From Prevotella sp. (GTDB taxonomy: Bacteria > Bacteroidota > Bacteroidia > Bacteroidales > Bacteroidaceae): DNA of 64,000 bases. The notes beneath the pieces were generated by a model. It did not search any database. It saw only the letters and a program-made list of their open reading frames with translations, and was not told where the DNA came from. This document shows positions 11,524 through 62,459 of the stretch, piece by piece. The stretch covers positions 1-64,000 of the forward strand of contig JAFUFJ010000012.1 of assembly GCA_017469955.1 (NCBI GenBank), read 5' to 3'. A program made the position numbers and the translations under genes. Each line of letters begins with the position of its first letter. Within the stretch, counting starts at the first letter, position 1.

Positions 11524-11630
11524 GAGAAAGCATAGACTTTAGGGTGAGAAGTCTTAGCTTTCTGCCCAATAACTCTATCCTTTCTCGCCATGAACTCTTA
11601 GCTTTCTTGCCCTGAAGGCTTAGCTTTCTC
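11524..11630. repeat. 107-bp lattice element (reverse orientation)
   Basis: Five units on a 22-bp lattice (starts 11524, 11546, 11568, 11590, 11612; last unit 19 bp). Each unit has the form nnGAA-N3-centre-N3-TTnTn. The outer ends are GAGAAAGC and GCTTTCTC. Read on the minus strand, its third and fourth units match those of the 26476 copy closely, so it lies in the opposite orientation. It sits downstream of the lipoprotein gene and its terminator, upstream of the phosphatase promoter. No coding capacity is proposed. Confidence 0.85.
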
Positions 11631-11690
11631 GCGGAGCAGGCTGCCCAATGGCTGCAAGAGGGAAGCCAGATGCGGGGATGACAGGAAAAC

Positions 11691-11725
11691 AAAAAGTCCG
11701 GCATGTCGGGCGGACATGCCGGACT
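11691..11725 (-). terminator. Rho-independent terminator
   Basis: AGTCCGGCATGTC (11695-11707) pairs perfectly with GACATGCCGGACT (11713-11725) around a 5-nt loop. On the minus strand the stem is followed by a run of five T. It lies 19 bp after the stop of the lipoprotein gene at 11744 and ends the SusCD-EEP-lipoprotein transcript. Confidence 0.85.
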
Positions 11726-11743
11726 GTCTTTCGCGAAGCGCGG

Positions 11744-12544
11744 TCAAAGTTCCTCGATGGAGAGGGTGTAGGCAGTCTGTGTGCCGACAGTCTCGGTGGC
11801 AGTGCTGCGCAGAATGTAGCTTTCGCCGGTGGTCATGAAGATGGTGTATTCGCCTGCAGGCTCGACAAGGGTGAGCTTCATGGCTGGCAGTGTGGCCAGC
11901 TGGGCTTTCAGATCGTCGGCAATACTGGTCTTCACCTCGCCGACGACAACGGCCTTATAGGCACTGGCTGAGAACTTTTTGACGGCATTGACGGCTCCCG
12001 CCACCTGCTCTTTGGCCGAGATCTTTACCATGGCCAAAGGCAAGACAATGGTCTTGTTGGCCTTGGCAATCGACTTGCCTTGGGTCTTTACATACTGCAT
12101 GAAGCAGCCGTCGCCGATGGTTTCGCTCTCGACGGTGTTGATCTTGTGGCCGAGTACGACGGTACTGCCTTGGATATCGTTCCCCTTGTAGCCTTCCATG
12201 ACGAACGAACAGAACTTGGCCGACAGGAACGACAGTTGGGTTGATGTGTTCTGACAGGCCGACTGATCGGCATAGTTCAGCACGTCGGTACGGTCGACAA
12301 TGGCCGGAGTACAGCCTTTTGCCTTGAGATAGTCGGCTGCTTTCTCAACATTGCCGGCCGACGAGGCTTCCGACAGCGACGTAATGTAGCAGACGTTCAG
12401 CGTGTTCTCCTTGTTCCACTCCTGGGTGACTGGCTTGTCGGGTGTGCCGGGATTGTCGGGAGTGTCGGGCGCATCGCTGCCTCCACAAGCCGTAAACAGC
12501 CAACCGCCCATGAGCAATGCCATCCAGATGATATTCTTTTTCAT
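11744..12544 (-). CDS. lipoprotein of unknown function
   Basis: A 266-residue protein with a lipobox FTAC (Cys20), followed by a Gly/Asp/Pro-rich linker (APDTPDNPGTPDKP) typical of Bacteroidetes surface-tethered proteins. The globular part is about 220 residues, alternates strands and helices, and starts 'TLNVCYITSLSEASSAGNVEKA'-like (split here by function, not a motif I know). I do not recognise the family. It follows the endonuclease/phosphatase gene by 16 bp and precedes a strong terminator, so it belongs to the first SusCD transcript. A substrate-binding or accessory surface role is possible from context only. Confidence 0.75.
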   Translation of the reverse strand: MKKNIIWMALLMGGWLFTACGGSDAPDTPDNPGTPDKPVTQEWNKENTLNVCYITSLSEASSAGNVEKAADYLKAKGCTPAIVDRTDVLNYADQSACQNTSTQLSFLSAKFCSFVMEGYKGNDIQGSTVVLGHKINTVESETIGDGCFMQYVKTQGKSIAKANKTIVLPLAMVKISAKEQVAGAVNAVKKFSASAYKAVVVGEVKTSIADDLKAQLATLPAMKLTLVEPAGEYTIFMTTGESYILRSTATETVGTQTAYTLSIEEL

Positions 12545-12560
12545 GCTTTGTTCCTCCTTC

Positions 12561-13379
12561 TTATTTTAGTTTGACAATTGAGACAACCGGGCAATGGTCA
12601 GACAGTTCCTGACCGTTGTAGAAGCGGTCGAGCACCTTCGAACTGACCAACTCAAACTGACCTTTCGCACCGAGAATAAAGTCGATCTTCGAAGCTCCAT
12701 AGTATGTGCCCTGGTCTGTGTCCATACGGTCGTAGCTTTGGGTAAGCAAGTTGATGACGTCTGTGCCCGGCCACATGTTCATGTCGCCCGTAAGAAGGGT
12801 TGGAAGGGTCTGGCTGATGACGGTATTGCCGGTCAACACGCGCGCCTGCTCCATCTGTCCTCCGATATGATCGAGATGACTGCAGGCCACACGCACCATC
12901 CGTCCCGAGGGCAACAGGATGTCTGCTACGACAACTCCGCGCTGATCGGCCGAACCTTCCGGCCGTGGCAAGCGCAAGGCTTGTACGTTGACAATGGGAT
13001 AACGGCTCAGGATGGCGTTGCCATAAAGCTCGTTTTCGCAATAGGTGTATTTCGTTTCATCGTCATCGCCCTTCTTGTTCATCAGGTTGTAGGCATAGCC
13101 GAACACACCGAACATATTGAGTTTCGAAGCCATATCCTGCACCACGTCGCGGTACTTCATATTGACCATCTGGCGCGCACTTCGGTTTTCCACCTCGTTC
13201 AGACAGATAATGTCGGCATTCTCGGGCATGAGGCAGTCGGCAAAGGGCTGCACATTAAAATCGGGTTCAAAAGAGCGGACGTTGAAAGTGACCACCTTCA
13301 ACTGCTCCTGTGCATACATGTCTGCATAAAAGAAAAACGACAGCAGACCGCACATCAAAACGGTTTTCAAGCATTTCAT
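12561..13379 (-). CDS. secreted endonuclease/exonuclease/phosphatase (EEP) family enzyme
   Basis: A 272-residue exported EEP-fold hydrolase. The signal peptide is MKCLKTVLMCGLLSFFFYADMYAQ; the frame opens 7 codons earlier but the signal peptide favours 13379. Catalytic motifs: TFNVRSF near the mature N terminus (metal Asn), CLNEVEN (Glu), SHLDHIG, TGDMNMWPG (Asp-x-Asn) and SDHCPV (Asp-His) at the C terminus. The family cuts phosphodiesters or phosphomonoesters in nucleic acids, inositol phosphates or sphingomyelin. It lies downstream of SusD, separated by a hairpin that may attenuate. In this locus the likely role is extracellular attack on nucleic acids or another phosphate-containing polymer, which is inference. 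Confidence 0.88.
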   Translation of the reverse strand: MKCLKTVLMCGLLSFFFYADMYAQEQLKVVTFNVRSFEPDFNVQPFADCLMPENADIICLNEVENRSARQMVNMKYRDVVQDMASKLNMFGVFGYAYNLMNKKGDDDETKYTYCENELYGNAILSRYPIVNVQALRLPRPEGSADQRGVVVADILLPSGRMVRVACSHLDHIGGQMEQARVLTGNTVISQTLPTLLTGDMNMWPGTDVINLLTQSYDRMDTDQGTYYGASKIDFILGAKGQFELVSSKVLDRFYNGQELSDHCPVVSIVKLK

Positions 13380-13401
13380 AGAAAATTCTTGTCTAAACAT
13401 G

Positions 13402-13441
13402 AAAAAAATCGGGGCGATCCTGATTCAGGAACTCCCCGATT
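13402..13441 (-). terminator. terminator or attenuator between susD and the EEP gene
   Basis: AATCGGGG (13407-13414) pairs with CCCCGATT (13434-13441), and an inner TCCTG-ATT-CAGGA hairpin extends the structure. On the minus strand a run of seven T follows. It lies 33 bp after the SusD stop, so it may end most transcripts after SusCD and lower expression of the downstream hydrolase. Confidence 0.75.
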
Positions 13442-13473
13442 CTGATTACTTCAATAGTGTCGGAAAACGACGG

Positions 13474-15114
13474 TTACTTCCAATAGTCATTGTTCTTCAG
13501 CGCGCCATTGGCCTTGGTCAACTCTGCTGAAGGATAGGGGAATGTTATCATTCCGTCCTCATAACGGCTCTGATTGGTATAGTCTTCATAGTCACCTACT
13601 GTGAAGTCAGACTCAGAATCCATACGGTTCGTATAGTGACGCACCTGAGGATGGCTGTTGAGTTCTTTCTCTGCAAGGGCCTTGATGGTAGCGTCGCCAC
13701 TGTGATACCAGCGCTTCAAGTCGTACAAGTGGTCGACGGCAAGCTCGAATGCCAGCTCGCAAAGACGCTCATGATAGATGTCTGCCATCGATGGAGCATG
13801 GTCAATCTTGGCCAGACCCGAACGAGTGCGGACGTCATCAATATCGGTACGTGCCTGCTCGGCTTGTCCTTTCATGATGTAAGCCTCAGCACGGAAGAGC
13901 TTAAGCTCGGCAAAACGGATGATGGGCCAGTTGGTACGTGTGGTTGGCCAGTCACCGTTTGAGCTCACCAAACCTGCTGCTACTGGATCTTCCGGAGCAA
14001 ACACGTCCATCCACTTGTTAATAGCAAAGCCTGCCTCTACGTCTGAACTCGAGAAGAACTTTCGTGTTTCTCCAAAGAATTGGAACTCATCTCCATACTC
14101 CAATATCGACCTCTTAAGGCGAGCATTGCCTGCTCCGTCTTTCAGGAACTCGGCATAAATGTCGTAGGTTGGCTTGAACTGACCCCAACCATTGTACTTG
14201 CCCCAGCCTTTATTCTCAAGACTTACGCCTACGAATTCTACACCACCGTTGGTTACTCCGTCGTAACCACCGTTGCTTGGAATGGCCCAACAATACTCAC
14301 TGTTGTACCACTTCGAGATGTCATAAGTGAAGTTGTCGTTGAAGTTCGGTGTCAAAGCACGACCATAATTCTGCTGAAGATCGTTGACAACAGCAATGAC
14401 TTCGTCCCACTTAGAGGCATCCCAGCATGCCCAATAGGCAAGAACCTTGGCCTTCAGGGCAAGAGCTGCAGCCTTGTGAGCTCGTCCGAGATCATCGTCA
14501 CCGTATGTTTCGTAACGAGGAAGATACTCGGCTGCCTTGTCCATGTCTTCGCAAATAAGACGATAGTTCTCCATGACGGTAGGCTGTTGCGTAGGAATCG
14601 AGAAGTCATAGTCATTGGGAAAATCCTCGAAACGAATGAAAGGAACGCCGAGCTTGTCCGTACCATAGCGGTAGGCGATAATGAAATGACCCCAACCGCG
14701 AAGGAAAAACGCCTCACCAAGCGAACGACGTTCGATGTCGGTCAGCGAACCTTTCTTGAGCAATGTATTCACAACCCAGTTAGCACGGCTGATGGTCTGG
14801 CGATAGACATTGTTCCAAACATCGCGCAATGGGCTCTCGTCACCATTGTAGTTGAACGTAGCTAAAGTGGAATATCCACGTGTACGTCCCCATACAATCT
14901 CATTGGCACCGGCCTGTTCCCAATATATTTCACGGCCGAAAACACCCTCCTGAGACAACCGAGCATAGCATGCATCAATAGCATCAATGGCATCTTGGTC
15001 GGTCTGGAAGTAGTTTGTTGTCGTAGGAGCACCCTCCGACTGCACATCAAGGAAATCACTACATGAAGTGAATGCCAGCAGACCTGCAGCAAATATATAA
15101 TATATCTTTTTCAT
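13474..15114 (-). CDS. SusD/RagB-family outer-membrane lipoprotein
   Basis: A 546-residue lipoprotein; the lipobox is AFTSC (Cys18) followed by SDFLDVQSEG, the usual SusD start. The TPR-like helical body carries typical SusD segments (ERRSLGEAFFLRGWGHF; WPIIRFAELKLFRAEAYIMKG; IYHERLCELAFELAVDHLYDLKRW) and ends with the characteristic 'PYPSAELTKANGALKNNDYWK'-type tail. It sits on the cell surface as a lid on its SusC partner and captures ligand. It starts 19 bp after the SusC stop. The ligand cannot be read from the sequence; neighbouring phosphatases, a nuclease-like enzyme and a nucleoside hydrolase suggest a phosphorylated compound. Confidence 0.93.
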   Translation of the reverse strand: MKKIYYIFAAGLLAFTSCSDFLDVQSEGAPTTTNYFQTDQDAIDAIDACYARLSQEGVFGREIYWEQAGANEIVWGRTRGYSTLATFNYNGDESPLRDVWNNVYRQTISRANWVVNTLLKKGSLTDIERRSLGEAFFLRGWGHFIIAYRYGTDKLGVPFIRFEDFPNDYDFSIPTQQPTVMENYRLICEDMDKAAEYLPRYETYGDDDLGRAHKAAALALKAKVLAYWACWDASKWDEVIAVVNDLQQNYGRALTPNFNDNFTYDISKWYNSEYCWAIPSNGGYDGVTNGGVEFVGVSLENKGWGKYNGWGQFKPTYDIYAEFLKDGAGNARLKRSILEYGDEFQFFGETRKFFSSSDVEAGFAINKWMDVFAPEDPVAAGLVSSNGDWPTTRTNWPIIRFAELKLFRAEAYIMKGQAEQARTDIDDVRTRSGLAKIDHAPSMADIYHERLCELAFELAVDHLYDLKRWYHSGDATIKALAEKELNSHPQVRHYTNRMDSESDFTVGDYEDYTNQSRYEDGMITFPYPSAELTKANGALKNNDYWK

Positions 15115-15133
15115 ATTCTCAAAAACTTTATAA

Positions 15134-18100
15134 TTAGTACGTCAATTGAATGTTGAACGCGAATACTCTCGAAAGTGGATATTTCAGTGCATCATAGCCG
15201 CCACACTCTGGGTCTACCCCCGAGTAATGGGTGATAGTAAACAGATTTTCACCGCTGACTGACACCTTCAAACGGCTGCCACGATCATTGAAATGAGCAA
15301 TGCTGCGAAGCGCATCCGTAAGGTCATAGCCCAGCGTAATGTTCTTCAGACGCAGATAAGAGGCACTTTCCAGATAGTAAGTCGACGGCATTGTCCAGTT
15401 TTGATTAGGATCGTTCTTCGAGAGACGGGGTATGTTTGAATCCGTATTGGTTGGACTCCAAGCATTGAGAATGTCCTGAGAACGGTTGAATTCTCCCTCA
15501 ACATCGCTCAGGATAGAATACTTGGCAATGTTGTATGCCTGTGCCTTCCCGACGCCTTGCAGCTGGATACCGAACGAGAATTTTCTCCAATCAAATCCAC
15601 CTTGCAGGTTATATGTCACCTTAGGTGTGGCAGATCCCACATATTGGCGGTCCTTAGACGGGTCGATATTTCCATCACCGTCATAGTCAACAAACCACAA
15701 GTCGCCAAGCTGAGCATTGGGTTGAGCCTTGCGAGCCTCTGCAAGATCGGCTTCATTCTTGATGACTCCGTTGCTCTTCACAAGGTAGAATTCATCCATT
15801 GGGCCGTCAAGATGGCTCTGATAGCAATAGTCTACGAGGCGGTATCCACCTCCACCTTGCCATACAGCCTCAGGATCGTTGCCGATATTGGATATCCAGT
15901 TCTTCAAGAATGCTACGTTTCCTGTTACCCAATAGCCAAAGTCATTGTTGATCTTGTCACGCCAAGTGGCCGTAAACTCAAAGCCACGGTTGCTGACTTC
16001 ACCGAGATTAATCTTACGAGCATCAAAGCCTATATAGTTTGGCCAGTCTGTTGTTTGGTCCTGAATAAGGTCTTTTGTCTTCTTCATGAAGAAGTCTGCA
16101 GATACAGAAAGACGGTTCTTCAAGAATGCAGCATCAAGACCAATGTTCCATTGATTTGACGTTTCCCATGTAAGCAACGGGTTCAAGGAGCGACCAAGAT
16201 ACACGAAGTTGTTGTACAACTGGTTGGTGGCTGCACCATACCAAGCCTGTTCGTTCCAGAAAGAAGTGCTGAGGGTGGCACTCTTGTAGTTCATTCCGAT
16301 AGAACCAAGGTTACCTACCTTACCCCAAGATGCACGAAGTTTCAGCAAGTTAATGGCTTCTGTCTTCGGGAAGAAGCTCTCATTGGATATTTTCCATGCA
16401 GCAGTGAAGGCAGGGAAGGTTCCGCTGTTGTGTCCTTCAGGCAGGCGTCCTGCCCAGTCTTTGCGAATGCTTGCAGTAATAAAATAGCGGTCGTCATATG
16501 AATAGGAGAGACGCCCGATGACGGCAACGTTGGCATCTGGACCGGTAAGCCAGTCTGAAGTACTTGTACCGCTGGCATACTTCATGTATTGAAGGTAGTT
16601 GATTTCGTTGGCAAATCCATAACCTGTAGCATCAAAACCACGAGACTTGTAATAATCAGTGGTGACTGCTGCGAGGGCACCCAAGGTGTGTTTACCGAAT
16701 GAATTGTCATAGGTCAGCGTGTTTTCGGTCTTCCACTGGTCGGTACGATAGCTTTGTTCATAGAGAGTATTGGAAAGTTCTGGTTTTCCAACCTCATCAC
16801 GTATCGGGGTAAAGCCTTTATAATAATAGGCATCTTGGAAATAAGTCAGGCGACTCATGAACTTCAGACCGGTGATGATGTTCTTGATAGTCAGCGTAGT
16901 GGTTGACTTCATCGAGTTGTTCTTATTGTAGATGTTTTCAGCCTTAAGCAGGCGTATGGGGTTGATGGCGTCGCCATGTGCGTCTGCAAAGTTAGATCCA
17001 TACTGAGCAATGTATGCCGGATCTTCGGTTGTCGTTCCTCCGTATGTGCCGTCAAGCGGATTGTAGACTGTGGCAGAGCTTGGCATATAGATGGCAGACA
17101 TATAGGTTCCCGAGTAGCCAGAATCAGTATTTGTAGAACGGCTGCTGCTGTTACCATAGTAGAGGTCTTCACCTACACTGACATACTTGCCAAGTTCATA
17201 GTTGCCTACATACTTCACACTGATGTCCTTGTTGAAGGTATTAACAAGTGTTCCGTCTACATTTGAAATATTAAGCGACAGGCGATGCTGGCTCATCTCC
17301 GTACCACTCTCCAAAGCAACGTTATGACGCTGGTAGAGAGCTGTGCGGAAAATCTCGTCAACCCAGTCAGTACGTGTAGTGCCAATCCAAGGGTTCACAG
17401 AGGGATCCCATGCCGATGGCAACGAGATACCTGCGTTTGCATACGACTGCTTGCGCATTTCCATTTCTTCTTCGGCAGTAAGGCCGTGGACAAGGTTTGT
17501 CGGAGTCTTCACGCCGAACGTTCCATTATAGTTAATACGGGTCTCACCCTTCTTTGCACGTTTTGTCGTTACGAGCACGACACCTCCGGCACCTGACTGA
17601 GCACCATAAATAGCGGCAGATGCAGCATCCTTCAAAACAACGATGCTTTCTACGTCATCCATGTCGAATGAGCCACCAGGCACTCCGTCAACGACCCACA
17701 GAACGGCGTCGTTAGACGAACCCTTACCACGTATTACCATACTGGCGCCCTTGGCTCCATCATTCTGTACAGTCACGCCAGGTATCTGACCTTGCAACAT
17801 TGCGGTAGCACCTTGAATGGCTCGCGTCTGCAATTGCGGAATGTTTTCAACCACACCTACAGAGGCCGACAGGTCTTGCTTACGGGCTTGTGCACCATAA
17901 CCGAGTGCAACGACTTCGTCGAGCATGAGGTTGTCCTCTTCCATCTGGACAGCCACATTGCGACCATTGACCTTCACCTGTTGGGTTTTGTAGCCAATAG
18001 ATGAAATTTCAAGTGTCTGACCGGCCTTGGCTTCGATGGCGAAGTTACCGTCAATATCGGTAACCGTACCGCCTTGCTGGCCTACAACACGAACAGTAGC

Positions 18101-18298
18101 TCCGATGACTGGCTCACCGGTTGCGTCTTTCACGGTACCTACTACCTTCTGGTCTTGCTGCTGAATGCCCTGCACACCATTGGTGTCTGCATTGGCTGTC
18201 ATAGCAAAAGAAGGAGCAAGGAATGTGAACACTGAAAATGCGGCTATCTTCAATAACCGGCATTTGCAACATGTAGATTGCTTTCTTTTTTCCATCAT
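15134..18298 (-). CDS. SusC/RagA-family TonB-linked outer-membrane transporter
   Basis: A 1054-residue TonB-dependent transporter. Order of parts: signal peptide (ending MTANA), a carboxypeptidase-regulatory-like domain at about residues 50-125 (GTVKDATGEPVIGATV), a TonB box-like stretch with DEVVALGYG, the plug (about 135-260, with VVDGVPGG and IVVLKDAASAAIYG), and a 22-strand barrel ending FNIQLTY. The frame opens at 18355 with a Tyr/Phe-rich stretch, but the signal peptide and the promoter support 18298. It imports the ligand captured by the downstream SusD. No sigma/anti-sigma pair or hybrid two-component regulator lies next to it. Confidence 0.94.
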   Translation of the reverse strand: MMEKRKQSTCCKCRLLKIAAFSVFTFLAPSFAMTANADTNGVQGIQQQDQKVVGTVKDATGEPVIGATVRVVGQQGGTVTDIDGNFAIEAKAGQTLEISSIGYKTQQVKVNGRNVAVQMEEDNLMLDEVVALGYGAQARKQDLSASVGVVENIPQLQTRAIQGATAMLQGQIPGVTVQNDGAKGASMVIRGKGSSNDAVLWVVDGVPGGSFDMDDVESIVVLKDAASAAIYGAQSGAGGVVLVTTKRAKKGETRINYNGTFGVKTPTNLVHGLTAEEEMEMRKQSYANAGISLPSAWDPSVNPWIGTTRTDWVDEIFRTALYQRHNVALESGTEMSQHRLSLNISNVDGTLVNTFNKDISVKYVGNYELGKYVSVGEDLYYGNSSSRSTNTDSGYSGTYMSAIYMPSSATVYNPLDGTYGGTTTEDPAYIAQYGSNFADAHGDAINPIRLLKAENIYNKNNSMKSTTTLTIKNIITGLKFMSRLTYFQDAYYYKGFTPIRDEVGKPELSNTLYEQSYRTDQWKTENTLTYDNSFGKHTLGALAAVTTDYYKSRGFDATGYGFANEINYLQYMKYASGTSTSDWLTGPDANVAVIGRLSYSYDDRYFITASIRKDWAGRLPEGHNSGTFPAFTAAWKISNESFFPKTEAINLLKLRASWGKVGNLGSIGMNYKSATLSTSFWNEQAWYGAATNQLYNNFVYLGRSLNPLLTWETSNQWNIGLDAAFLKNRLSVSADFFMKKTKDLIQDQTTDWPNYIGFDARKINLGEVSNRGFEFTATWRDKINNDFGYWVTGNVAFLKNWISNIGNDPEAVWQGGGGYRLVDYCYQSHLDGPMDEFYLVKSNGVIKNEADLAEARKAQPNAQLGDLWFVDYDGDGNIDPSKDRQYVGSATPKVTYNLQGGFDWRKFSFGIQLQGVGKAQAYNIAKYSILSDVEGEFNRSQDILNAWSPTNTDSNIPRLSKNDPNQNWTMPSTYYLESASYLRLKNITLGYDLTDALRSIAHFNDRGSRLKVSVSGENLFTITHYSGVDPECGGYDALKYPLSRVFAFNIQLTY

Positions 18299-55500: not shown

Positions 55501-55877
55501 CAAGCATAAGCGGAGCGTCTGACCTGGCACGGGCATGGTCGCTGCTCGGCGACCGAAAGCGGGCCGCACACATCGTGGAACAGCTGTGGAAAGACAATAT
55601 GCAACACCTCAACTACTACCTGTCGCTGGGCGAAAGCCAGTGGATTGCCCACCAGAAACGGTTCGAATGGCACACAGGAATGATGGTCCGCGACCTCGAG
55701 ACCATGGCCTCCTGCGACCCTGAAAGGGCAGCACAGATGCAGGAAGAGCTCAGGAGCCTGCTCGGCAATCTTCAGGCTTCTTCGGCATGCTTGCCGTCCT
55801 TGCCCGCGAGAAAGCTAAGAGTTATGCCCGAGAAGTCTATGGATTCTCACCGAGAAAGCATAGAGTTATTAGGATAA
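52548..55877 (+). CDS. DUF2723-family membrane glycosyltransferase-like protein with TPR-like C terminus
   Basis: A 1109-residue membrane protein. It begins with the DUF2723 signature: LTIEPSASFWDCPEFIVAANKLQVGHPPGAPFFML, with the Asp-Cys-Pro-Glu and HPPGAP motifs near residues 35-55. Around 12 membrane spans follow up to residue 640, then a soluble C-terminal part of about 450 residues. The family is related to GT-C enzymes and TMEM260-type protein O-mannosyltransferases and in Bacteroidetes is tied to protein O-glycosylation; the specific role here is inference. The last 23 codons (from 55808) and the stop lie inside a 107-bp repeat, so the natural C terminus was replaced or extended. Confidence 0.88.
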   Translation: MKHYSQINTALGWLCFLIASIVYGLTIEPSASFWDCPEFIVAANKLQVGHPPGAPFFMLAANVFGQLAIDASHVSMMVNLMNALLSAACIMFLFWTITHLLRNLDKSDVHTPDNDLAILVGGLTGSMTFMVSDTFWFSATEAEVYAFSSAFTAVVFWLILKWEQHADQPHSDRYLVLMMYLVGLSIGVHLLNLLCLPAIVLVFTYRRWPSAGWQASVAALLVSFLLVAAVLYGLIPGIVTVGGWLELLFVNRLNCPFNTGVFVYLALLSASFLWAIAETSLGQSRRESLAFCLTIGLLGIPFVGEGAASVAAGLLALLALWLLQEHPWRGKRLLSSRTKNTILLCLLMLSVGYSSYAVIMIRSNANTPMDQNSPEDIFTLGRYLSRDQYGDQPLVYGPAYTSQVRLSIEGDHCRPVFRQGAPVWQKTAKQSPDDPDRYVAVTHKDRLVYAQNMWFPRMHSAQHRQDYEAWMGGVKGHEEAYDRCGETMMVKTPTAWENLRFFLSYQCNFMYWRYFLWNFAGRQNDLQGKGEAEYGNWLSGLPLIDNLRLGNQRLMPDTLKQNKGHNVYYSLPLLLGLLGLFWQACRCGREGVRQSLVVTMLFVMTGLAIVVYLNQTPNQARERDYAYAGSFYAFAIWCGMGATAVGKALGRRRGRQGFWALPCLLIPLQMGSQTWDDHNRSGRFVCRDYGKNYLLSAGDDSLQPVIFCNGDNDTFPLWYAQEVEGVARGARVCNTMYLTADWYIDQMRRPSYASPGLPITWERSKYVTGVNDYVDIAPEVKPQVEHFYREQPQRARAVLGDNPYEVGNVMQHWIRSDDETMHLIPTDTLWLRGPSREGTLLPVSLKGRRALYKNDLMMLEILAQSAWKRPVYVASSVSEECYQGLEPYLMRVGLAYQFVPFNAKAEGKEFDVERVYDNVMNRFCYGGLDRKAVYLDQTSMKMCWSMRVLMGELALRLIANGDKERARKVLEKAERVLPEHSVPLTSISGASDLARAWSLLGDRKRAAHIVEQLWKDNMQHLNYYLSLGESQWIAHQKRFEWHTGMMVRDLETMASCDPERAAQMQEELRSLLGNLQASSACLPSLPARKLRVMPEKSMDSHRESIELLG

Positions 55878-55914
55878 AAGCTAAGACTTCTGGGGCATAA
55901 CCCTTAGCTTTCTC
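55808..55914. repeat. 107-bp lattice element overlapping a gene end
   Basis: Unit starts 55808, 55830, 55852, 55874, 55896. The outer units agree as inverted repeats at 21 of 22 positions. Words at positions 6-8 are AGC, GTC, AGC, AGC, CCC. The stop codon of the DUF2723 gene (55875-55877) lies at the start of unit 4. Confidence 0.9.
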
Positions 55915-55926
55915 AAAAACAAAGAG

Positions 55927-55953
55927 CGCCCGGCAGCCGTTGACTGTCGGGCG
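55927..55953. terminator. hairpin between convergent genes
   Basis: CGCCCGGCAG (55927-55936) pairs with CTGTCGGGCG (55944-55953) around 7 nt, with one G-T pair. T-rich sequence follows on both strands (TTCTTCTTC; TCTTTGTTTTT), so it may stop both the DUF2723 and the nicotinamidase transcripts. Confidence 0.65.
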
Positions 55954-56028
55954 TTCTTCTTCACAAACACGGCGCCTCACGTCGCGAACAAGCTTGCAGA
56001 CGGCGCACGAAGGCCTGAGGCACAGGGT

Positions 56029-56622
56029 TCAACCGAGCGCCTTGAGCCCCTGACCGGCCATGTATCCGGCCAATGTCTGGCCTCCATCAAGCGATGCCAC
56101 ACCGGCAAGAAAGACCCGCGGACGCAAGGGTTGCAGCGAACGAAGGGTGTTGAGCACGCAGACATCGCCTGCTATACCGCAGACGACCACCTGCTCTTCC
56201 CGGGCAAATACCATCACGTCGGGCTTGCGATGGGTGGCCGAAGCAACGTTGTAGGCCAAGTGGTCAGCATATTGACGGCGAAAGGTGAAGGCCGTATATT
56301 CCTCTTTGTCGGCCTGCTTGCCCTTGTGAAGAAACTCCGAATAGACGTTCTTCTCCTTGGCCACGGCCAGCAAGTCGGCATGGATGCGGGCTCCATGCGT
56401 GCCACGTACGCAATGAACGGGCCACGGTCCGCCCTGCGGTGTGAACGAGCAATGGCCGGAAGGATGCCAGTCCTGGGTAAAAACCAGGCGCCCCACCCTG
56501 TCGCTTGCAATCAGCTCGCACACGTTTTCTATGGCTTTCCGGCCTCCTTCCACTGCCAGACTACCGCCTTCGATGAAGTCGTACTGGCAGTCAACAACGA
56601 TTAGTGTCAGTTTCTTTCTCAT
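56029..56622 (-). CDS. pncA: nicotinamidase (isochorismatase family)
   Basis: A 197-residue cysteine hydrolase converting nicotinamide to nicotinate in NAD salvage. Catalytic Asp is D11 (VVDCQYDF); metal ligands lie in TQDWHPSGHCSF (Asp, His, His); the WPVHCVRGTHGARI segment and a catalytic Lys (HKGKQADKEEYTAF) follow; the nucleophilic Cys is in GIAGDVCVLNT near residue 153. All residues of the triad are present. It is a single gene, convergent with the DUF2723 gene. Assignment to PncA rather than another isochorismatase-like enzyme rests on the metal-site motif. Confidence 0.93.
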   Translation of the reverse strand: MRKKLTLIVVDCQYDFIEGGSLAVEGGRKAIENVCELIASDRVGRLVFTQDWHPSGHCSFTPQGGPWPVHCVRGTHGARIHADLLAVAKEKNVYSEFLHKGKQADKEEYTAFTFRRQYADHLAYNVASATHRKPDVMVFAREEQVVVCGIAGDVCVLNTLRSLQPLRPRVFLAGVASLDGGQTLAGYMAGQGLKALG

Positions 56623-56681
56623 AAGATTCGTTTCGTTTTGTCAGCTGAAAATGTCGCCGCTACGACGGCAACCCCATGGAT

Positions 56682-56738
56682 ATAAAAAGACTTAAGGCCT
56701 GGGGCTTATGCATCAGCACAACGCCTCAGACCTTAAGT
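56682..56738 (-). terminator. terminator after the tRNA pair
   Basis: ACTTAAGGCCTGGGGC (56690-56705) pairs with GCCTCAGACCTTAAGT (56723-56738) with small mismatches. On the minus strand TCTTTTTATA follows. It lies about 50 bp after tRNA-Val. Confidence 0.75.
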
Positions 56739-56786
56739 TGTCGCTCCTTACCCTCTCATCATGTAAGAATTAGCTTCATTTCTCTG

Positions 56787-56860
56787 TGTCGACACTTGGA
56801 CTCGAACCAAGGACCCCCACCATGTCAAGGTGATACTCTAACCAGCTGAGCTATGCCGAC
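56787..56860 (-). tRNA. tRNA-Val (GAC)
   Basis: On the minus strand the cloverleaf runs GTCGGCA (acceptor), D-arm with AGCTCAGCTGGTTAGAG, anticodon arm TCACC-TTGACAT-GGTGG with anticodon GAC, T-arm with GGTTCGAGTCC, and acceptor TGTCGAC plus discriminator A. All seven acceptor pairs form (one G-T). CCA is not encoded. It is the second of two tRNAs in one transcript. Confidence 0.95.
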
Positions 56861-56925
56861 AAAGGTAATGCCTTCCGTTTGACACCCTGTGAAGAGCCTC
56901 CAGCGGGAGGACTTTGCGGTTGTCG

Positions 56926-57007
56926 TGCGCCTGAAAGGACTCGAACCTTCACGTCGTAAGACACTAGATCCTAAGTCTAGCGCGTCTGCCAATTCCGCCA
57001 CAAGCGC
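56926..57007 (-). tRNA. tRNA-Leu (TAG)
   Basis: On the minus strand: GCGCTTG acceptor start, D-arm GGCGGAATTGGCAGACGC, anticodon arm CTAGA-CTTAGGA-TCTAG with anticodon TAG, a long variable arm typical of class II tRNAs, T-arm GGTTCGAGTCC, acceptor CAGGCGC and discriminator A. Length 82 nt fits a leucine tRNA. CCA is not encoded. It precedes tRNA-Val by 65 bp. Confidence 0.95.
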
Positions 57008-57045
57008 CTGTTCTCATCCTCAAAGAGGAATAACATTACGGAGTG

Positions 57046-57077
57046 CAAAGGTAATAGTTATTTACGAAATGTGCAAA
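57046..57077 (-). promoter_or_regulatory. promoter of the tRNA-Leu/tRNA-Val unit
   Basis: On the minus strand TTTG (57077-57074), 20 bases, TACCTTTG (57053-57046), about 40 bp before the tRNA-Leu 5' end. It is just downstream of the S41 peptidase stop. Confidence 0.75.
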
Positions 57078-57104
57078 TTTTTTCTTCTTTATTCGCTCTT
57101 TTTT

Positions 57105-58115
57105 TTAGTTTATCTGCCTTCGGGCAGTCTCAATGATGGTGTCAATGCCCCTGAGAAGGTCGTCTTGAGACAGATCTACACGAACATCGGGCTCGATACC
57201 GAACTCGGTTGACTGGCGGTTGCGGTCGTACATCGGACAAGCAGAGAAACGGATGCTCCAGCCACAGGGCAGCTCTGACGAGAAGGGAAGGCCGGCACCT
57301 CCGCCGGTACGGTCGCCGACCACCGTGACATTGGGGAAGCATTTCATGTACTTCACAAACTCATTGGCAGCCGAAAACACCTGCCGGTTGGTCAGGATGC
57401 ACACGGGTTTCTGCCATCGGAGGGCTTTTGAAGGCTTTACATACTGGGCCTCCATCGGCGAGAAGTCATTGTGTCCTCGCCCGGTCTTGTGCTGCATATA
57501 GCCCACAAGGCATTCCTCATTGGTGAAACGGGCTGCGAGTTGCTCGGCAGAAGTGAGAAGTCCGCCACCGTTATCACGCAGGTCAATGATGAGCCCACGG
57601 CAGGGTGCCAGGTAATAAAGAATCTGGTCAAGGTTGCCTTCGCCCAGCTCATTGGAGAACGAAGGACAGCGAACGTAGCCTATATGGTCGTCAAGTACGC
57701 GGTAGCGAAGGCCGTTTGATATCTGATAATCCCTACCAAGATACTTGTTCAAGAGGGTGTCTGACAGGTTGGAAGGATAGGCTTCAAACCATGACCAGTA
57801 GCGGCCCATGTCGAAGGATGTATAGAGATTTACATGACCATCACGCAACTCGCCGAGCATATTGGTCAGCACTTCAAACTTCTGTCGGTTGCTCATTCCG
57901 GCATCAAACTGAGGCTTGTAGCGCAGATAGACCTCGTTCCAGTCAAGCCCATACTCCTTTTCTTTATAGTCAAAGAAACAATAATGCTCGTCAATGATAT
58001 GCCAAAGTGCCTCAAAATTGCCCTCGGGCGTGTCGGCATACTCATCTTCTTTGACGCAGGAAGACAAGGAAAGCAGAAGCAAGAGGGGAAGAAACAAATG
58101 GAGCATCCTGTTCAT
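57105..58115 (-). CDS. S41-family (tail-specific/C-terminal processing type) peptidase lipoprotein
   Basis: A 336-residue lipoprotein with lipobox SLSSC (Cys20 from the start at 58115); the 19 residues from an upstream ATG are not signal-like. Residues about 35-120 are a helical N domain with LRDGHVNLYT, which is common to Bacteroidetes S41 proteins. The catalytic core has IIDLRDNGGG and the nucleophile in NRQVFSAANEF (Ser), then GDRTGGGAGLP. No clear PDZ domain is seen. It should process peptides outside the cytoplasm. It starts 4 bp after the DUF3316-like gene stop and is third in the parC operon. Confidence 0.85.
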   Translation of the reverse strand: MNRMLHLFLPLLLLLSLSSCVKEDEYADTPEGNFEALWHIIDEHYCFFDYKEKEYGLDWNEVYLRYKPQFDAGMSNRQKFEVLTNMLGELRDGHVNLYTSFDMGRYWSWFEAYPSNLSDTLLNKYLGRDYQISNGLRYRVLDDHIGYVRCPSFSNELGEGNLDQILYYLAPCRGLIIDLRDNGGGLLTSAEQLAARFTNEECLVGYMQHKTGRGHNDFSPMEAQYVKPSKALRWQKPVCILTNRQVFSAANEFVKYMKCFPNVTVVGDRTGGGAGLPFSSELPCGWSIRFSACPMYDRNRQSTEFGIEPDVRVDLSQDDLLRGIDTIIETARRQIN

Positions 58116-58119
58116 GGCT

Positions 58120-59037
58120 TCAGAGTTTGACGGTGAAATACTTGGTGTAGCCCAGCAAAAGCTGGTGGTCATAGTCGTGATACTTCAGGTTGTTGACCTC
58201 GCGTTGCCGGTAGTTTCCCATGTATCCTATGCGGAAAACGTGGCGTCCGAGACGAAAATCGAGGCTGATTCGCTGCCTCAGCGACAAGGCATTGAAGGGA
58301 GAAGTCACGGCAATGTTGTGGTCATAGTTGCCCCGAGTGAAGATCTCATAGTAGCTTTGTCCGTATTGAGGACTGAAGGTCGCACCCAGGAAAGGCAAGG
58401 AAGCTTCATAATCTATGCCGAAGTTCTTGTTGAGAAAGCTGAAGCTTTTTTCTGCAAGAAGGGTCACTCCTGCCTCAGCCTGGGCATATAACTGGGCGGG
58501 ATTGTTGCCGTTTCGGGTATTGTAAAGTCCTCCTAAAAAAGCTTCAACCATAGGACCGACGGCGAGATACCTGTTCACTCTACGGAGCCAGTCATACTGA
58601 AATGCGAGACTTCCGCCCAGATAGTCGGCATTGTTGGCACGGTTGCTGGCCATGTTCAGGCTGACTTGCCACGTTGACTGGTGCTGCCACTTGCGGTAAG
58701 TCCTTGTCTCTGTGTCGAATCTCAAGCGCCTGTCTACCGAAGAAAGACTAACTGCCGACCCCTTATAGGTCTCAGGAGACAGGTAGGTGTCAAGCACATT
58801 TGCCGGACCAATGCCCAACATATACTCCTGAATGCGGGTTGCCGCGAAGGTATTCACCAACCCTCCACAGACAGTTTTCTTCTTCATCCCCACATCAACC
58901 ACATCCACTTCCGGCAAGAACCGGAGGCTGTCTGCCTGCGATGTCTGTGCCTTCAGCGGAAGAACCGTAAGCAATGACAGGCAGAAAGCCAGGAAAAATC
59001 CTTGGCAAGAAGTGGCGATATGGCTCATTTTACTCAT
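58120..59037 (-). CDS. DUF3316-like outer-membrane beta-barrel protein
   Basis: A 305-residue exported protein (signal peptide ending PLKA). From about residue 85 it shows amphipathic strands with aromatic girdles, such as LAFQYDWLRRVNRYLAVGPMVEAFLGGLYN and a C-terminal YTKYFTVKL, as in small outer-membrane barrels. The layout agrees with the Bacteroidetes DUF3316 family; my match is by general pattern. No function is known. Its start overlaps the end of the topoisomerase gene by 8 bp, so translation is coupled. Confidence 0.7.
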   Translation of the reverse strand: MSKMSHIATSCQGFFLAFCLSLLTVLPLKAQTSQADSLRFLPEVDVVDVGMKKKTVCGGLVNTFAATRIQEYMLGIGPANVLDTYLSPETYKGSAVSLSSVDRRLRFDTETRTYRKWQHQSTWQVSLNMASNRANNADYLGGSLAFQYDWLRRVNRYLAVGPMVEAFLGGLYNTRNGNNPAQLYAQAEAGVTLLAEKSFSFLNKNFGIDYEASLPFLGATFSPQYGQSYYEIFTRGNYDHNIAVTSPFNALSLRQRISLDFRLGRHVFRIGYMGNYRQREVNNLKYHDYDHQLLLGYTKYFTVKL

Positions 59038-61870
59038 CTTCGGGGAACAGACTTAGCTGGAATGGAATGTCGTCTGCATTCTGATGCAGGGGTTCAATGT
59101 CCTGGTTCTGGGAGACAGGGCTGTCGTTTGCCGGCGTTTCCACAGGCTCTTCTTGGGCTGAATCAGCTGTTTCCTGCGGATGTTCGGTGGCATTTTTCTC
59201 CTGTTCTGCTGAGGGTTCTTCATCAGAAAGGGACTCTTTCAAGGTATCTTCCGTCGACGGTTCAGGCTGTCTTAGGGGCTCCAACTCCTCGACAGAGGCC
59301 ACTTCCCAAGTGGTGATGCGTTTGCCTTTTGCCGTGAATTTCTTCACCTGTATGAACTCATCCACATCGATTTCCATCGGCGCACGGTGCTCATCTTGTC
59401 CGCCAAGGGTAACCAACAGGCGGGGATAGGCCTGGTCTGTGAGCAAGATCAGTTTGCTTTCAGGATTATCTCCCACAATGTTCTGCCGTTTTTTCGATGC
59501 CTCCAAGACGAATCTCTTTACGTAGACATAGTCTTGATTGTCAGCATCCCTGATGACAGCGCTCCATATTTTCTCCGGGTTCCATTTCTCTATTACCCGT
59601 ATGTTCTGCTCATAATGGTTGTTGACATCAATGTTTGTGAAGTAGAACTCATTGTTGTCGAGGATGACAAGGATGAGATCTTCCTCTCTGAACTCTCCGA
59701 GATATCGCCCATGTTCCTCATAGTTGATGCGGCTGACATCGGCGTCAAACCACACCTTTCGTCCTCCAAGTGTGGAATGTCCGTGGCTTTTCAGGGTGAT
59801 ACGCTGTACGGGTAACTTGGTGAGGAGGTTGCCTTTTGAGGCTCTTCCCTTGATGATAATCTCCGAGAAGTCTTTCGTTATAAAGAGAGCTTTCTTCTTT
59901 GCCGAGGCGATATAGGCCGGGTCGAAGGTCACCTTTATTACTTCTGCTTCTCCATTTGGGTTAGCCGTGAAGTACATCACCCTCGAGCTTGGTTTGCCTG
60001 AAGTGAGGTCGTTTTCGCGTTCACGGGTGATTCCTGTGATGTTGAAGCGCTTGATATAACACGGACCATTCTTACCGTCGCGATAGACAACGTTGTAGAT
60101 CGTGCGCTGGTCGTTTTTCTTAAATACCTGTACGTGGATGACGTTCTTGCCCACGAACACCTTCTCTGCCACGCGCAACACCTTGTATTTACCGTCGCGG
60201 AAGAACACGATGACGTCGTCAAGGTTGGAGCAGTTGCAGACGAACTCGTCTTTCTTGAGCCCTGTACCCACAAAGCCTTCCTGACGATTGATATAGAGTT
60301 TCTCGTTGGCCTCTGCCACTTTTGAGGCGACAATGGTGTCGAAGTTTCTGATTTCGGTAAGCCTCGGGTGCTGGCTTCCGTATTTTTCCTTGATGAACGT
60401 AAACCAGTTGATGGTCACGTCGGTCATGTGGGCCAGGTCGTGTCGTATGCCTTTCAGCTCGTCATTGATACGTGCGATGAGCTCGTCGGCCTTGTCTTTG
60501 CTGAATTTCAGGATGCGATGCATCTTTATTTCCATCAGGCGAAGGATGTCTTCTCGGGTCACTTCGCGGATGAAGCCGGGCTTGAACGGTTCGAGCCGCT
60601 TGTCGACGTGTGCCACGGCCTTGTCCATGTTCTCGGCGTTTTCGAATCCTTTGTCCTTGTAGATGCGCTCTTCGATGAAGATTCGCTCGAGGGATGCGAA
60701 GAAAAGTTGTTCGAGCAGTTCGTCGCGACGTATCTCAAGCTCCTTGCGAAGCAGGGCCTTTGTGCGGTCGGTAGAGTGTCGAAGCACGTCGCTCACGGTA
60801 AGGAAGCAGGGCTTATTGTCTTCGATGACGCAGCAGTTTGGTGAGATGCTTACCTCACAATCGCTAAAGGCGTAGAGCGCATCGATGGTCTTGTCTGACG
60901 ACACTCCTGGGGCAAGATGCACCTGAATCTCGACGTTTGCGGCCGTGAGGTCTTCCACCTTCTTGGCTTTTATCTTTCCCTCTTCGATGGCACTGACGAT
61001 AGAGTCTTGCAGCGTCTCCGAGGTTTTCGAGAATGGTATCTCGCGGATGACGAGCGTCTTCGAGTCGAGTTTCTCTATCTTGGCCCTCACTTTCACCACT
61101 CCTCCGCGCTGTCCGTCGTTGTATCTCGACACGTCTATGCTGCCGCTTGTGGGGAAATCAGGGTAGAGATGGAACTCCTCTCCGCGCAGATAGCTGATGG
61201 CTGCGTTGCAGAGCTCATTGAAGTTGTGGGGCAATATCTTCGACGACAGGCCCACGGCGATGCCCTCTGCGCCCTGCGCGAGCAAGAGAGGAAACTTGAC
61301 AGGCAGCGTGATGGGCTCCTTGTTGCGCCCGTCATACGACATCTTCCAGTCGGTAGTCTTGGGATTGAACACCACGTCGAGGGCCAGTTTCGACAGTCTT
61401 GCCTCGATATATCGTGGTGCGGCTGCGCTCGAACCCGTCAGTATGTTGCCCCAGTTGCCCTGCGTATCGATGAGCAACTCTTTCTGTCCCATCTGTACAA
61501 GGGCATCTCCGATGCTGGCATCTCCATGCGGATGGAACTGCATAGTGTGTCCAACAATGTTGGCAACCTTGTTATACCGGCCGTCGTCCATGCGCTTCAT
61601 CGAGTGCAGGATGCGCCGTTGCACGGGTTTCAGGCCGTCTTCTATGTGCGGAACGGCACGCTCCAATATGACGTAGGAGGCATAGTCAAGAAACCAGTTG
61701 CGGTACATGCCGCTCAGATGGTGCACGGCAGAGGCGTCGAAACGGTTGGCAGGCCGGTAGTCAGAGTGTCCTTCGCCGTTGTCGCCGGCCACGGTTTCCG
61801 CCTGCAAGTCTTCGTCATTTCCTGCATTCTGCATCTGCTGCAGCTCGTCGTCTTTCGTCTTTTCGTCCAT
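59030..61870 (-). CDS. parC: DNA topoisomerase IV subunit A (ParC-type)
   Basis: A 946-residue type IIA topoisomerase A subunit. The breakage-reunion domain has VILERAVPHIEDGLKPVQRRIL, HPHGDASIGDALVQM (the quinolone-resistance region) and SSAAAPRYIEARL with the catalytic Tyr. A coiled region follows near 400-470, then a C-terminal beta-pinwheel (about 520-860) and an acidic, Glu/Pro-rich tail of about 90 residues. The open frame reaches 61918, but the promoter at 61894-61924 lies in that part, so the start is MDEKTKDDEL at 61870. It decatenates chromosomes with ParE, whose gene is not in the window. ParC rather than GyrA is chosen from the GDASIGDA motif. Confidence 0.9.
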   Translation of the reverse strand: MDEKTKDDELQQMQNAGNDEDLQAETVAGDNGEGHSDYRPANRFDASAVHHLSGMYRNWFLDYASYVILERAVPHIEDGLKPVQRRILHSMKRMDDGRYNKVANIVGHTMQFHPHGDASIGDALVQMGQKELLIDTQGNWGNILTGSSAAAPRYIEARLSKLALDVVFNPKTTDWKMSYDGRNKEPITLPVKFPLLLAQGAEGIAVGLSSKILPHNFNELCNAAISYLRGEEFHLYPDFPTSGSIDVSRYNDGQRGGVVKVRAKIEKLDSKTLVIREIPFSKTSETLQDSIVSAIEEGKIKAKKVEDLTAANVEIQVHLAPGVSSDKTIDALYAFSDCEVSISPNCCVIEDNKPCFLTVSDVLRHSTDRTKALLRKELEIRRDELLEQLFFASLERIFIEERIYKDKGFENAENMDKAVAHVDKRLEPFKPGFIREVTREDILRLMEIKMHRILKFSKDKADELIARINDELKGIRHDLAHMTDVTINWFTFIKEKYGSQHPRLTEIRNFDTIVASKVAEANEKLYINRQEGFVGTGLKKDEFVCNCSNLDDVIVFFRDGKYKVLRVAEKVFVGKNVIHVQVFKKNDQRTIYNVVYRDGKNGPCYIKRFNITGITRERENDLTSGKPSSRVMYFTANPNGEAEVIKVTFDPAYIASAKKKALFITKDFSEIIIKGRASKGNLLTKLPVQRITLKSHGHSTLGGRKVWFDADVSRINYEEHGRYLGEFREEDLILVILDNNEFYFTNIDVNNHYEQNIRVIEKWNPEKIWSAVIRDADNQDYVYVKRFVLEASKKRQNIVGDNPESKLILLTDQAYPRLLVTLGGQDEHRAPMEIDVDEFIQVKKFTAKGKRITTWEVASVEELEPLRQPEPSTEDTLKESLSDEEPSAEQEKNATEHPQETADSAQEEPVETPANDSPVSQNQDIEPLHQNADDIPFQLSLFPEDE

Positions 61871-61893
61871 GTTCTTTCTATATGTACAATGGG

Positions 61894-61924
61894 CAAAGTT
61901 ACGAAAAGTTGAGTGCAATGCAAA
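61894..61924 (-). promoter_or_regulatory. promoter of the parC operon
   Basis: On the minus strand TTTG (61924-61921), exactly 19 bases, TAACTTTG (61901-61894), a perfect match to consensus. A second copy made by a tandem duplication lies at 62012-61982 but its -7 box reads TAACTCTG, which should weaken it. Confidence 0.8.
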
Positions 61925-62070
61925 AGAAAAGACGAAGTTTTTTCATTTTCATGGCCGAGACGAAGTAACTTCGGCGAAAGCCAGAGTTACGAAAAGTTGA
62001 GTGCAATGCAAAAGAAAAGACGAAGTTTTTTCATTTTCATGGCCGAGACGAAGTAACTTCGGCGAAAGCC
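61897..62070. repeat. 88-bp tandem duplication upstream of parC
   Basis: 61897-61984 is repeated at 61985-62070 without a mismatch over about 86 bp. The unit includes the -33 box and part of the -7 box of the parC promoter. The near identity shows that the duplication is recent. Confidence 0.95.
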
Positions 62071-62352
62071 GAGCTGACGAAAACCAGACTGAAACGGACC
62101 TTTCTTCAGCGCGGCGTCCGTCCGTTCCCGGAGAGCAAGGGTTCAGGCGAGGCTGTAAAGAGGCATGGCTGCGGGGGAGAAACATCCTGGAAGAAAATGC
62201 GAAATATGTTGATAGCCGTCGCCACTTTCTGCCATTTCCCGTCAGAATACGCCGAAATGCCTCCAAGAAACGCAAAAAATCGTGGTTTCTGCAACCGGCT
62301 GATTACCAGCACAAGCAAACACATCAAGAAAACACAACGCAGCCATCGCGCC

Positions 62353-62459
62353 GAGAAAGGACAGCTTTCTGCCCGTGAAAGGGCAGCTTTCTCTGCATGA
62401 AGAGGCAGCGAAATGCCTATGAACGCAATGGTTTGACGCCGAGAAAGGGCAGGTTTCTC
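62353..62459. repeat. 107-bp lattice element, partly degenerate
   Basis: Unit starts 62353, 62375, 62397, 62419, 62441. Units 1, 2 and 5 are pseudo-palindromic (unit 5 is GAGAAAGGGCAGGTTTCTC); units 3 and 4 keep only nTGAA starts. The total is exactly 107 bp. It lies in the divergent region between parC and the carbohydrate-binding lipoprotein. The rest of 62071-62688 holds no supported gene. Confidence 0.82.

Follow-up and report, generated by a model that had tools for sequence, protein, structure and literature searches.

Dispersed 107-bp arrays in step with an 11.02-bp A/T lattice along the sampled chromosome of a Prevotella sp.

The window analyzed here, by which we mean the whole stretch of 64,000 nucleotides from contig JAFUFJ010000012.1 of the Prevotella sp. 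assembly GCA_017469955.1, contains copies of a dispersed intergenic array, mostly 107 base pairs (bp) long, that lie in step with a periodic A/T signal of the surrounding chromosome, referred to below as the lattice. The features of the window are listed in Table 1. A search of the window against Rfam at gathering thresholds returned two tRNAs only and no family match to the arrays. The five best matches of the window's glutamate dehydrogenase in the genome_contigs collection were metagenome-assembled genomes of Prevotella or Prevotellaceae (87-89% identity), three of them labelled as cattle or goat gut, and this protein similarity makes a Prevotella of the gut or rumen the probable source of the DNA. 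The assembly that holds the window (G000) comprises 2.26 Mb in 22 contigs and is 75.6% complete. From it, 848.5 kb of DNA (~38% of the genome) were sampled, including long runs of 300 kb (C6), 276 kb (C15) and 74 kb (C13, which is the window plus 10 kb); some stretches were picked for pattern matches, so that array density in the sample is not unbiased. Genes were predicted with a simple in-house caller and not taken from an annotation.

Copies, length and architecture of the arrays

The initial annotation had described nine clear copies and a probable tenth, each built on a 22-bp lattice. The listed copies and their lattice are indeed present in the window sequence, but the count had to be refined: six copies are clean (124-149 bits), two are degenerate despite having been used as seeds, and the copy at 52321 and the supposed tenth contain units of a second family (CATACATCTATGATGTATG-like), which occupy the middle of the former and positions 2701 and 2745 of the latter. 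The sample was scanned at a cut-off of 15 bits with an iterative two-strand profile, for which eight of the nine listed copies (all but 52321) served as seeds. This identified 76 copies in the 848.5 kb, with 65 scoring 110-151 bits and 11 scoring 36-78 bits, and the forward profile found no match above 12 bits in the reversed-sequence control. There were 32 copies on C6, 10 on C15 and 9 on C13, which extrapolates to ~150-200 arrays per genome.

The length of the element was assessed from its ends. The 9-mers of the array ends occurred 89 times (left) and 95 times (right), forming 81 pairs within 330 bp, and the end-to-end spans of these pairs were 107 bp (55 pairs), 63 bp (20), 41 bp (3), 85 bp (2) and 129 bp (1), so that every one of them follows k x 22 + 19. 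The peak at 107 bp bears out the fixed length proposed earlier. A palindrome-lattice scan that is independent of sequence likewise gave 112 peaks at period 22, as compared with 7, 10, 4 and 7 at periods 20, 21, 23 and 24; shuffled sequence gave 11 peaks at period 22.

Table 1. Arrays and lattice in the 64,000-nucleotide window
Feature	Position	Strand	Score or basis
Chromosomal 11.02-bp A/T lattice; weak in the 2-kb windows starting at 0, 1, 3, 16 and 17 kb	1..64000	.	spectral power
Second-family units at 2701-2719 and 2745-2763 (the "tenth" copy), on the same 22-bp lattice as the arrays	2701..2763	.	window sequence
107-bp array, clean; 5 units, 10 half-sites	11524..11630	.	131 bits
107-bp array, clean	20064..20170	.	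144 bits
107-bp array, degenerate	22731..22837	.	54 bits
107-bp array, clean; units 1 and 5 are exact reverse complements	26476..26582	.	149 bits
107-bp array, clean	39837..39943	.	143 bits
107-bp array, clean; flanked by convergent genes	45816..45922	.	130 bits
Mixed array; its last unit belongs to the first family and those at 52343 and 52387 to the second	52321..52427	.	missed by the first-family profile at 15 bits
107-bp array, clean; covers the final 70 bp of a predicted gene	55808..55914	.	124 bits
107-bp array, degenerate	62353..62459	.	36 bits

The 22-bp lattice is real, but its unit is actually two half-sites spaced 11 bp apart. An array therefore consists of ten half-sites in alternately inverted orientation with a basic step of 11 bp, and in the 65 clean copies an invariant AA or TT recurs every 11 bp along the whole element. 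The commonest half-site is GAGAA-NN-CT. Every unit combines one near-constant half with one variable half drawn from a small vocabulary, the near-constant halves being GAGAAAGCT in the outermost positions, GAGAAGTCT or GAGAAGTCA in units 2 and 4 and most often GAGAAAGGA in unit 3; GAGAAAGCT makes up 135 of the 650 half-sites. The copies are thus mosaics of half-sites, with a mean identity of 72% and a maximum of 94%. The second-family unit CATACATCTATGATGTATG is without AA or TT, yet it also stands on the lattice. Sequence conservation falls at the array ends, while the 11-bp phase runs hundreds of bp past them.

Nearly all copies (75 of 76) are intergenic, with a gene overlap of no more than 20 bp. 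Gaps between convergent genes are enriched: 25 copies were counted for 56 such gaps of at least 107 bp, versus 31 for 142 tandem and 14 for 62 divergent gaps, in a table that omits six of the 76 copies at stretch ends, where one side had no neighbouring gene. Three arrays (L044:7907, L044:11419 and L045:5174) have a near-identical upstream flank of ~40 bp in common, which is perhaps a repeated promoter or a duplicated gene start.

The 11.02-bp lattice is carried in coding DNA mainly by synonymous codons

Persistent ~11-bp A/T periodicity was found over most of the sampled G000 chromosome, genes included, as a wave with a period of 11.02 bp. The initial annotation looks right in its view that the lattice is not expected from passive decay, but it missed this chromosome-wide extent. 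Power at 11.02 bp was 14.8 in 2-kb windows (background 0.85) and 23.1, 26.1 and 27.8 in windows of 5, 10 and 20 kb, as compared with 2.0 (background 1.2) in 2-kb windows from 50 kb of E. coli MG1655. Among overlapping 2-kb windows, a power of at least 8 was reached by 63 of 73 on C13 (median 16.9), 267 of 299 on C6 and 195 of 275 on C15; the corresponding numbers in the controls were 3 of 49 for E. coli and 0 of 78 for contig 20 of the related genome G262. Coding windows of 330 bp had a mean power of 3.55, versus 0.84 at control periods. A 22-bp alternation, with A at one turn and T at the next, is also genome-wide but modest: the A-T signal peaked at 22.08 bp (2.9, versus 1.65 nearby) and the purine-pyrimidine signal at 22.04 bp (2.8, versus 1.47 nearby), as measured in G000 only.

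In C13 (74 kb) and in 150 kb of C6, the phase of the wave drifts mostly smoothly between successive 1-kb windows. Phase coherence loses approximately a quarter per 500 bp, with a decay length that we estimate at ~1.4-1.7 kb; between neighbouring 500-bp windows it was 4.4 of 6.0 on C6, and in E. coli a single step took it from 1.5 down to 0.2. The phase of DNA lying 120-900 bp from a base predicts whether that base is A/T, with an amplitude of 0.083 +/- 0.0008 in G000 and at most 0.003 in eight off-period controls. The amplitude for E. coli was 0.009, the level of its own controls, and plasmid pSYSM of Synechocystis, taken as a strong-periodicity control even though a plasmid is a poor proxy for a chromosome, gave 0.012 +/- 0.003 at 11.24 bp.

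To determine where the lattice is written, its amplitude was separated by class of site, and it was greatest at codon position 3 (0.162), followed by the arrays (0.155), intergenic DNA (0.092) and codon positions 1 (0.048) and 2 (0.031). Shuffling synonymous codons within genes reduced the power from 14.8 to 4.4, and shuffling codon order reduced it to 2.3. In coding DNA the lattice is therefore carried mainly by synonymous codon choice. Relatives provided a further comparison, the nearest having been chosen among 398 genomes by a single protein with 89-90% identity over ~730 residues in G151, G262 and G287. At 28,211 codons for residues identical between G000 and G262 (96 stretches, 74% identity), the third-position amplitude was 0.192 in G000 and -0.002 +/- 0.004 in G262. 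The absence of signal at the same residues in G262, together with the loss upon codon shuffling, indicates that the lattice is mainly not a reflection of protein helix periodicity. At shared codons of G151, G287, G043, G254 and G055 the G000 lattice was within one standard error of zero; it was -0.024 +/- 0.009 in G006, a genome with its own lattice, and 0.03, 0.03 and 0.01 in G016, G071 and G363 (errors 0.02-0.04). Since it is missing at the shared codons of relatives, the lattice arose, or was lost elsewhere, after the lineages parted.

Two blocks within the long runs stand out by being off the lattice, and both look imported, judging from their gene content. The block at ~259-277 kb of C6 (L021:18479 to L022) contains or borders genes for an integrase, a helix-turn-helix protein, ResIII, a KAP-NTPase, Schlafen-AlbA proteins and a relaxase, with a nucleotidyl transferase gene near its far edge, and we take it to be a mobilizable island whose borders are marked by the lattice, given that the island itself is off it. 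The second block, at ~192-230 kb of C15, is mostly off the lattice, with breaks, and includes several glycosyltransferase genes along with PIN-domain and ATP-grasp genes (L039-L040). These assignments derive from 20 proteins scanned in or beside the two blocks, all of those from C15 lying outside its 192-200 kb portion.

Phase lock and distribution among relatives

The arrays are in step with the lattice around them. When the phase of each array was compared with that of its flanks at a distance of 150-1200 bp, the mean vector was 0.90 (n = 65), versus 0.08 for random centres (n = 300). The agreement was 0.86 for the degenerate copies (n = 11), 0.93 for the second array family (10 clusters, of which a few overlap degenerate first-family copies) and 1.00 for the arrays of G016 (n = 3), whereas the 16 arrays of G262, a genome without the lattice, gave 0.29, which is about chance level. 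Relative to the array, the A/T rhythm of coding DNA had an amplitude of 0.072 +/- 0.002 at 440-1100 bp and 0.017 +/- 0.001 at 1100-3300 bp, and the rhythm in step with the arrays extends for hundreds of bp in intergenic as well as coding flanks.

The exact array pattern was found in G000 only among 40 genomes. Under strict filters and at E <= 1e-7, a sequence model of the array had matches in 12 genomes of the genus (counting G000) out of 398; at E <= 0.01 it matched 21 of 60 genomes. The sequence-independent scan revealed 22-bp arrays of different sequence in other species, among them G055, G006, G071, G151, G287, G380 and G254, and G262 has at least three unrelated families of them (L113, L114 and L124; L097, L116 and L138; L134, L137 and L142).

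The genome-wide lattice is patchy among relatives, the measurements for all genomes other than G000 and G262 being based on 14-80 kb each (one 500-bp power value of G262 was not a number and was excluded). It is clear in G016, G006, G012, G363, G268, G100, G148 and G077 (0.026-0.055) and weak in G055, G254 and G071 (0.016-0.020). In G262, G151, G287, G380, G113, G040 and G266 the only maxima are small and lie off 11.0 bp; G133 gave 0.012 +/- 0.005 at 11.06 bp against a control maximum of 0.010. Six genomes assessed by the power measure only (G043, G056, G061, G138, G162 and G361) had values of 1.4-2.7 in 2-kb windows, and seven genomes of other families had 1.7-2.8, with one peaking at 11.00 bp. 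In the genome_contigs collection, for which 77 of 80 loci were used (three under 6 kb were omitted), the top three were L201 of UW_TS_PREV2_1 (4.8), L208 of Hallella bergensis DSM 17361 (4.3) and L180 (3.7, with a control maximum of 2.7), at periods of 10.98-11.00 bp. The lattice is visible in the 19 kb sampled from H. bergensis DSM 17361, and none was detected in the Xylanibacter ruminicola sample by the phase-prediction measure; Phocaeicola coprophilus (0.021 at 11.00 bp) and Bacteroides congonensis (0.017 at 10.96 bp) have weak signals at most.

Explanations and significance

The explanation that we favor, at about even chances, is that the sequence of the chromosome is adapted to a continuous path, nucleoprotein or superhelical, in which the 107-bp arrays would be the symmetric binding sites of greatest strength; the observations suggest a genome written to fit a regular DNA-packing structure. 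The DNA would follow a helical path of ~11.02 bp per turn, under-wound by ~5% (relaxed B-DNA has 10.5 bp), with A/T on one face at each turn and G/C opposite. In the gaps between genes, each array would offer five two-fold-symmetric sites, one per 22 bp, on a single face of the helix, and dimers of an abundant DNA-binding protein would probably lie side by side on it, two turns per dimer. Fixed spacing, alternating orientation and tolerance at the half-sites all point to symmetric dimers on one face of double-stranded DNA. Equal-faced protein binding, which was one of the ideas of the initial annotation, fits best with the AA or TT at every 11 bp and the limited half-site vocabulary. The predicted protein would wrap or stiffen the DNA and fix the register at the arrays, and phase continuity over kilobases is what an unbroken wrap or superhelix with a constant pitch would require. 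A weak pressure at all silent sites would be enough to write the lattice, whether by selection or by phase-dependent mutation. For the 848.5 kb sampled, the arrays, the lattice, their phase lock, the synonymous encoding and the near absence from an imported-looking island are established observations; the protein, the wrapping and the choice of selection over mutation as the cause are inferred.

Several results weigh against this explanation. The power of 330-bp coding windows is flat (3.5-4.1) at all distances from an array and does not increase toward it, although windows in array-free stretches are weaker (2.7), and arrays as organising centres were accordingly rejected. The arrays have no single global register: coherence of their spacing is weak (mean cosine 0.28, n = 25), and an exact register of 11.0 bp was discarded when spacing modulo 11 looked random, a result partly accounted for by the 11.02-bp period and the drift in phase. 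Five arrays of G006 are only loosely locked, with an offset (0.66), and G262 has arrays and no genome-wide lattice, which makes the two separable. The amplitude in intergenic DNA is lower than at codon position 3, and a residual power of 4.4 persists after synonymous shuffling. Phase is not conserved between G000 and G006 orthologues (25 stretches, mean vector 0.10), and conservation of phase was rejected for this pair; G016 and G363, with six and two stretches, had too few for a judgement, and G012 and G268 were without an orthologous stretch. Lastly, searches of 16 genomes for HU-HIG (PF18291) and the histone fold PF00808 did not identify a candidate for the binding protein. A nucleoid protein recognizable by presence or absence was discounted on these results: HU-HIG occurs in all 16, with and without the lattice (4-65 copies in eight lattice genomes and 2-19 in the eight others, by a model that also picks up ordinary HU relatives in control genomes), and PF00808 occurs in none.

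Two observations on HU-HIG were made in passing. G363 has 65 matches, by far the most of the 16 genomes, and its 20-kb sample shows the lattice; on contig 20 of G262, at ~76968-77445, a lattice array directly adjoins a match.

Among the alternatives, we consider two to be unlikely, and to a similar degree. The lattice could be mutational, in that a positioned nucleoprotein gives face-dependent mutation and A/T builds up every 11 bp without benefit, sequence and positioning reinforcing each other, while the arrays would be operator sites in their own right that come to share its phase. The peak of the signal at synonymous sites, a phase that is not in common with G006, its presence in coding windows whatever their distance from arrays and its absence from the imported-looking island would all be consistent with this. 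Unconstrained intergenic DNA, however, should then have the strongest signal and does not (0.092 versus 0.162 at codon position 3), which indels or promoters may explain in part, and a two-state A/T bias cannot yield specific 9-mers such as GAGAAAGCT at the frequency observed in the arrays. The lattice could also be curvature periodicity of a known type, i.e., an extreme form of the 10-11 bp A-tract periodicity by which plectonemes are shaped; no dedicated protein would be involved, and the arrays would simply be the most curved spots. Its period does agree with DNA under-wound by ~5%, and genomes with exceptionally persistent A-tract periodicity are described (PMC3431218). Nevertheless, bends need no alternately inverted half-sites, fixed five-unit core or sequence vocabulary, the second-family unit keeps to the lattice without AA or TT, and coherence decays over ~1.4-1.7 kb here, against published signals of ~100 bp (PMC4132750).

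Considerably less probable is a dispersed mobile repeat (a REPIN, a miniature inverted-repeat transposable element [MITE] or similar) built by chance from 22-bp units, for all that numerous, nearly always intergenic copies, the species-specific array sequence and the several distinct families in G262 would suit one. Insertions are not expected to be in step with the surrounding lattice, and the copies are mosaics of half-sites at 72% mean identity. There was no excess of target-site duplications over permuted flanks for 65 copies (exact lengths 2-11, offset search lengths 4-9), and the Y1 transposase PF01797, the only transposase type searched, had no match in G000, where the gene may sit in the missing part of the assembly. 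Of the 13 genomes searched, six have the domain, and six array-bearing genomes other than G000 lack a match. Thus, the REPIN/RAYT origin raised in the initial annotation was not supported, and a mobile repeat was set aside. A plasmid or phage origin was likewise set aside when one copy gave no blastn match in a phage or plasmid collection. As a separate matter, contig 1 of the lattice-bearing G016 has three Y1 matches within 60 kb (610881-669235), one with an internal stop.

Least probable of all, to the point of being nearly dismissed, is a transcribed hairpin array that acts as a terminator or RNA-stabilising 3' element. The excess in convergent gaps is in its favor, as are a mean fold z of -7.5 (40 copies) and a match above chance between the right half of unit 1 and the left half of unit 5 (p = 0.002). 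Conversely, the 11-bp phase runs on into genes, and pairing covariation was positive in none of the five units, self-complementarity within units being no higher than that between copies in all five and lower in units 2, 3 and 4. Arm matching over the whole element was 35.8 of 53 in real copies versus 38.0 in re-paired ones, and 300 chimeras of halves folded better on average (-50.3 kcal/mol, sd 10.8) than the 65 real copies (-45.6 kcal/mol), although the arbitrary orientation of copies alone depresses self relative to cross values for asymmetric units and may contribute to these differences. Folding, covariation, half-site and flank statistics all omit the 11 copies scoring below 105 bits. 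A hairpin or cruciform was rejected as not supported by the covariation and chimera tests, and the folded RNA of the initial annotation found no support.

Certain known systems resemble the arrays in part. REPIN/RAYT and BIME families consist of hundreds of short palindromic intergenic repeats with species-specific sequences, often at gene ends; the G000 arrays differ from them in having no Y1 match in the genome, no hairpin covariation within units and a fixed 11-bp lattice. The ARG boxes of E. coli are 18-bp palindromes with 3-bp spacers that form tandem operators at a few regulated promoters. Both they and the arrays set two-fold sites on one face at intervals of roughly two helical turns, but the arrays may number ~150-200 by extrapolation, are in excess in convergent gaps and have a pattern that extends degenerately into genes.

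Periodicities of 10-11 bp, their concentration at third codon positions and exceptionally persistent chromosomes have been described for bacteria (PMC3431218, PMC4132750, PMC3940949, PMC1242344, PMC7537859), and the role of the ~11-bp periodicity has been called unclear (PMC3431218, PMC3940949). The genomes with A-tract periodicity of Mrazek and colleagues (PMC3431218, PMC3940949, PMC7537859, PMC4132750) similarly have A/T every ~11 bp, genome-wide in some and partly at codon position 3, with signals of ~100 bp (PMC4132750); G000 is unlike them in its one sharp period, its phase continuity over kilobases and its sequence-specific locked arrays. The class A flexible patterns are also ubiquitous ~11-bp patterns and proposed sites of protein interaction, but they have a loose spacing of 7-12 bp and a span of 11-60 bp (PMC1242344), in contrast to the rigid spacing and 107-bp arrays of G000. 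The nearest named repeat found was BrickBuilt, a minisatellite MITE of Porphyromonas gingivalis (PMC4596501), which is likewise intergenic in a member of the Bacteroidales and has a short tandem unit (23 nt). Its 19 elements of 84-991 nt vary in unit number and have IS-like terminal inverted repeats as well as a leader and a tail, whereas the G000 array has a 22-bp step and a core that is mostly fixed at 107 bp, shows no target duplication and stands on a genome-wide lattice, a distinction drawn from design and not from a homology search. No report of kilobase phase coherence, of lattice-locked arrays or of such a lattice in Prevotella was found in the open literature, subscription papers having been mostly outside the search.

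More tentatively than for the adapted path itself, and with the chances somewhat against it, we speculate that some bacteria of the Prevotella group have a chromatin-like state, in which most of the chromosome is covered by a continuous nucleoprotein superhelix. Its pitch would be constant at 11.02 bp per turn, with one dimer for every 22 bp; silent sites would be recoded genome-wide to fit it, the 107-bp arrays would set its register, newly acquired DNA would be recognisable by being off the lattice, and array sequences would change from species to species without loss of the 22-bp geometry. The signal in G000 is strong, single-period and phase-continuous, where elsewhere it is weak and short-ranged; relatives without the lattice and an imported-looking island within the genome that lacks it are natural controls, and the discrete arrays could serve as bait for the protein. 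Together these make the explanations by packaging, mutation and supercoiling directly testable. The lattice points to an extra demand on synonymous codons beside translation and base composition, and the off-lattice state is a possible marker for recently acquired DNA.

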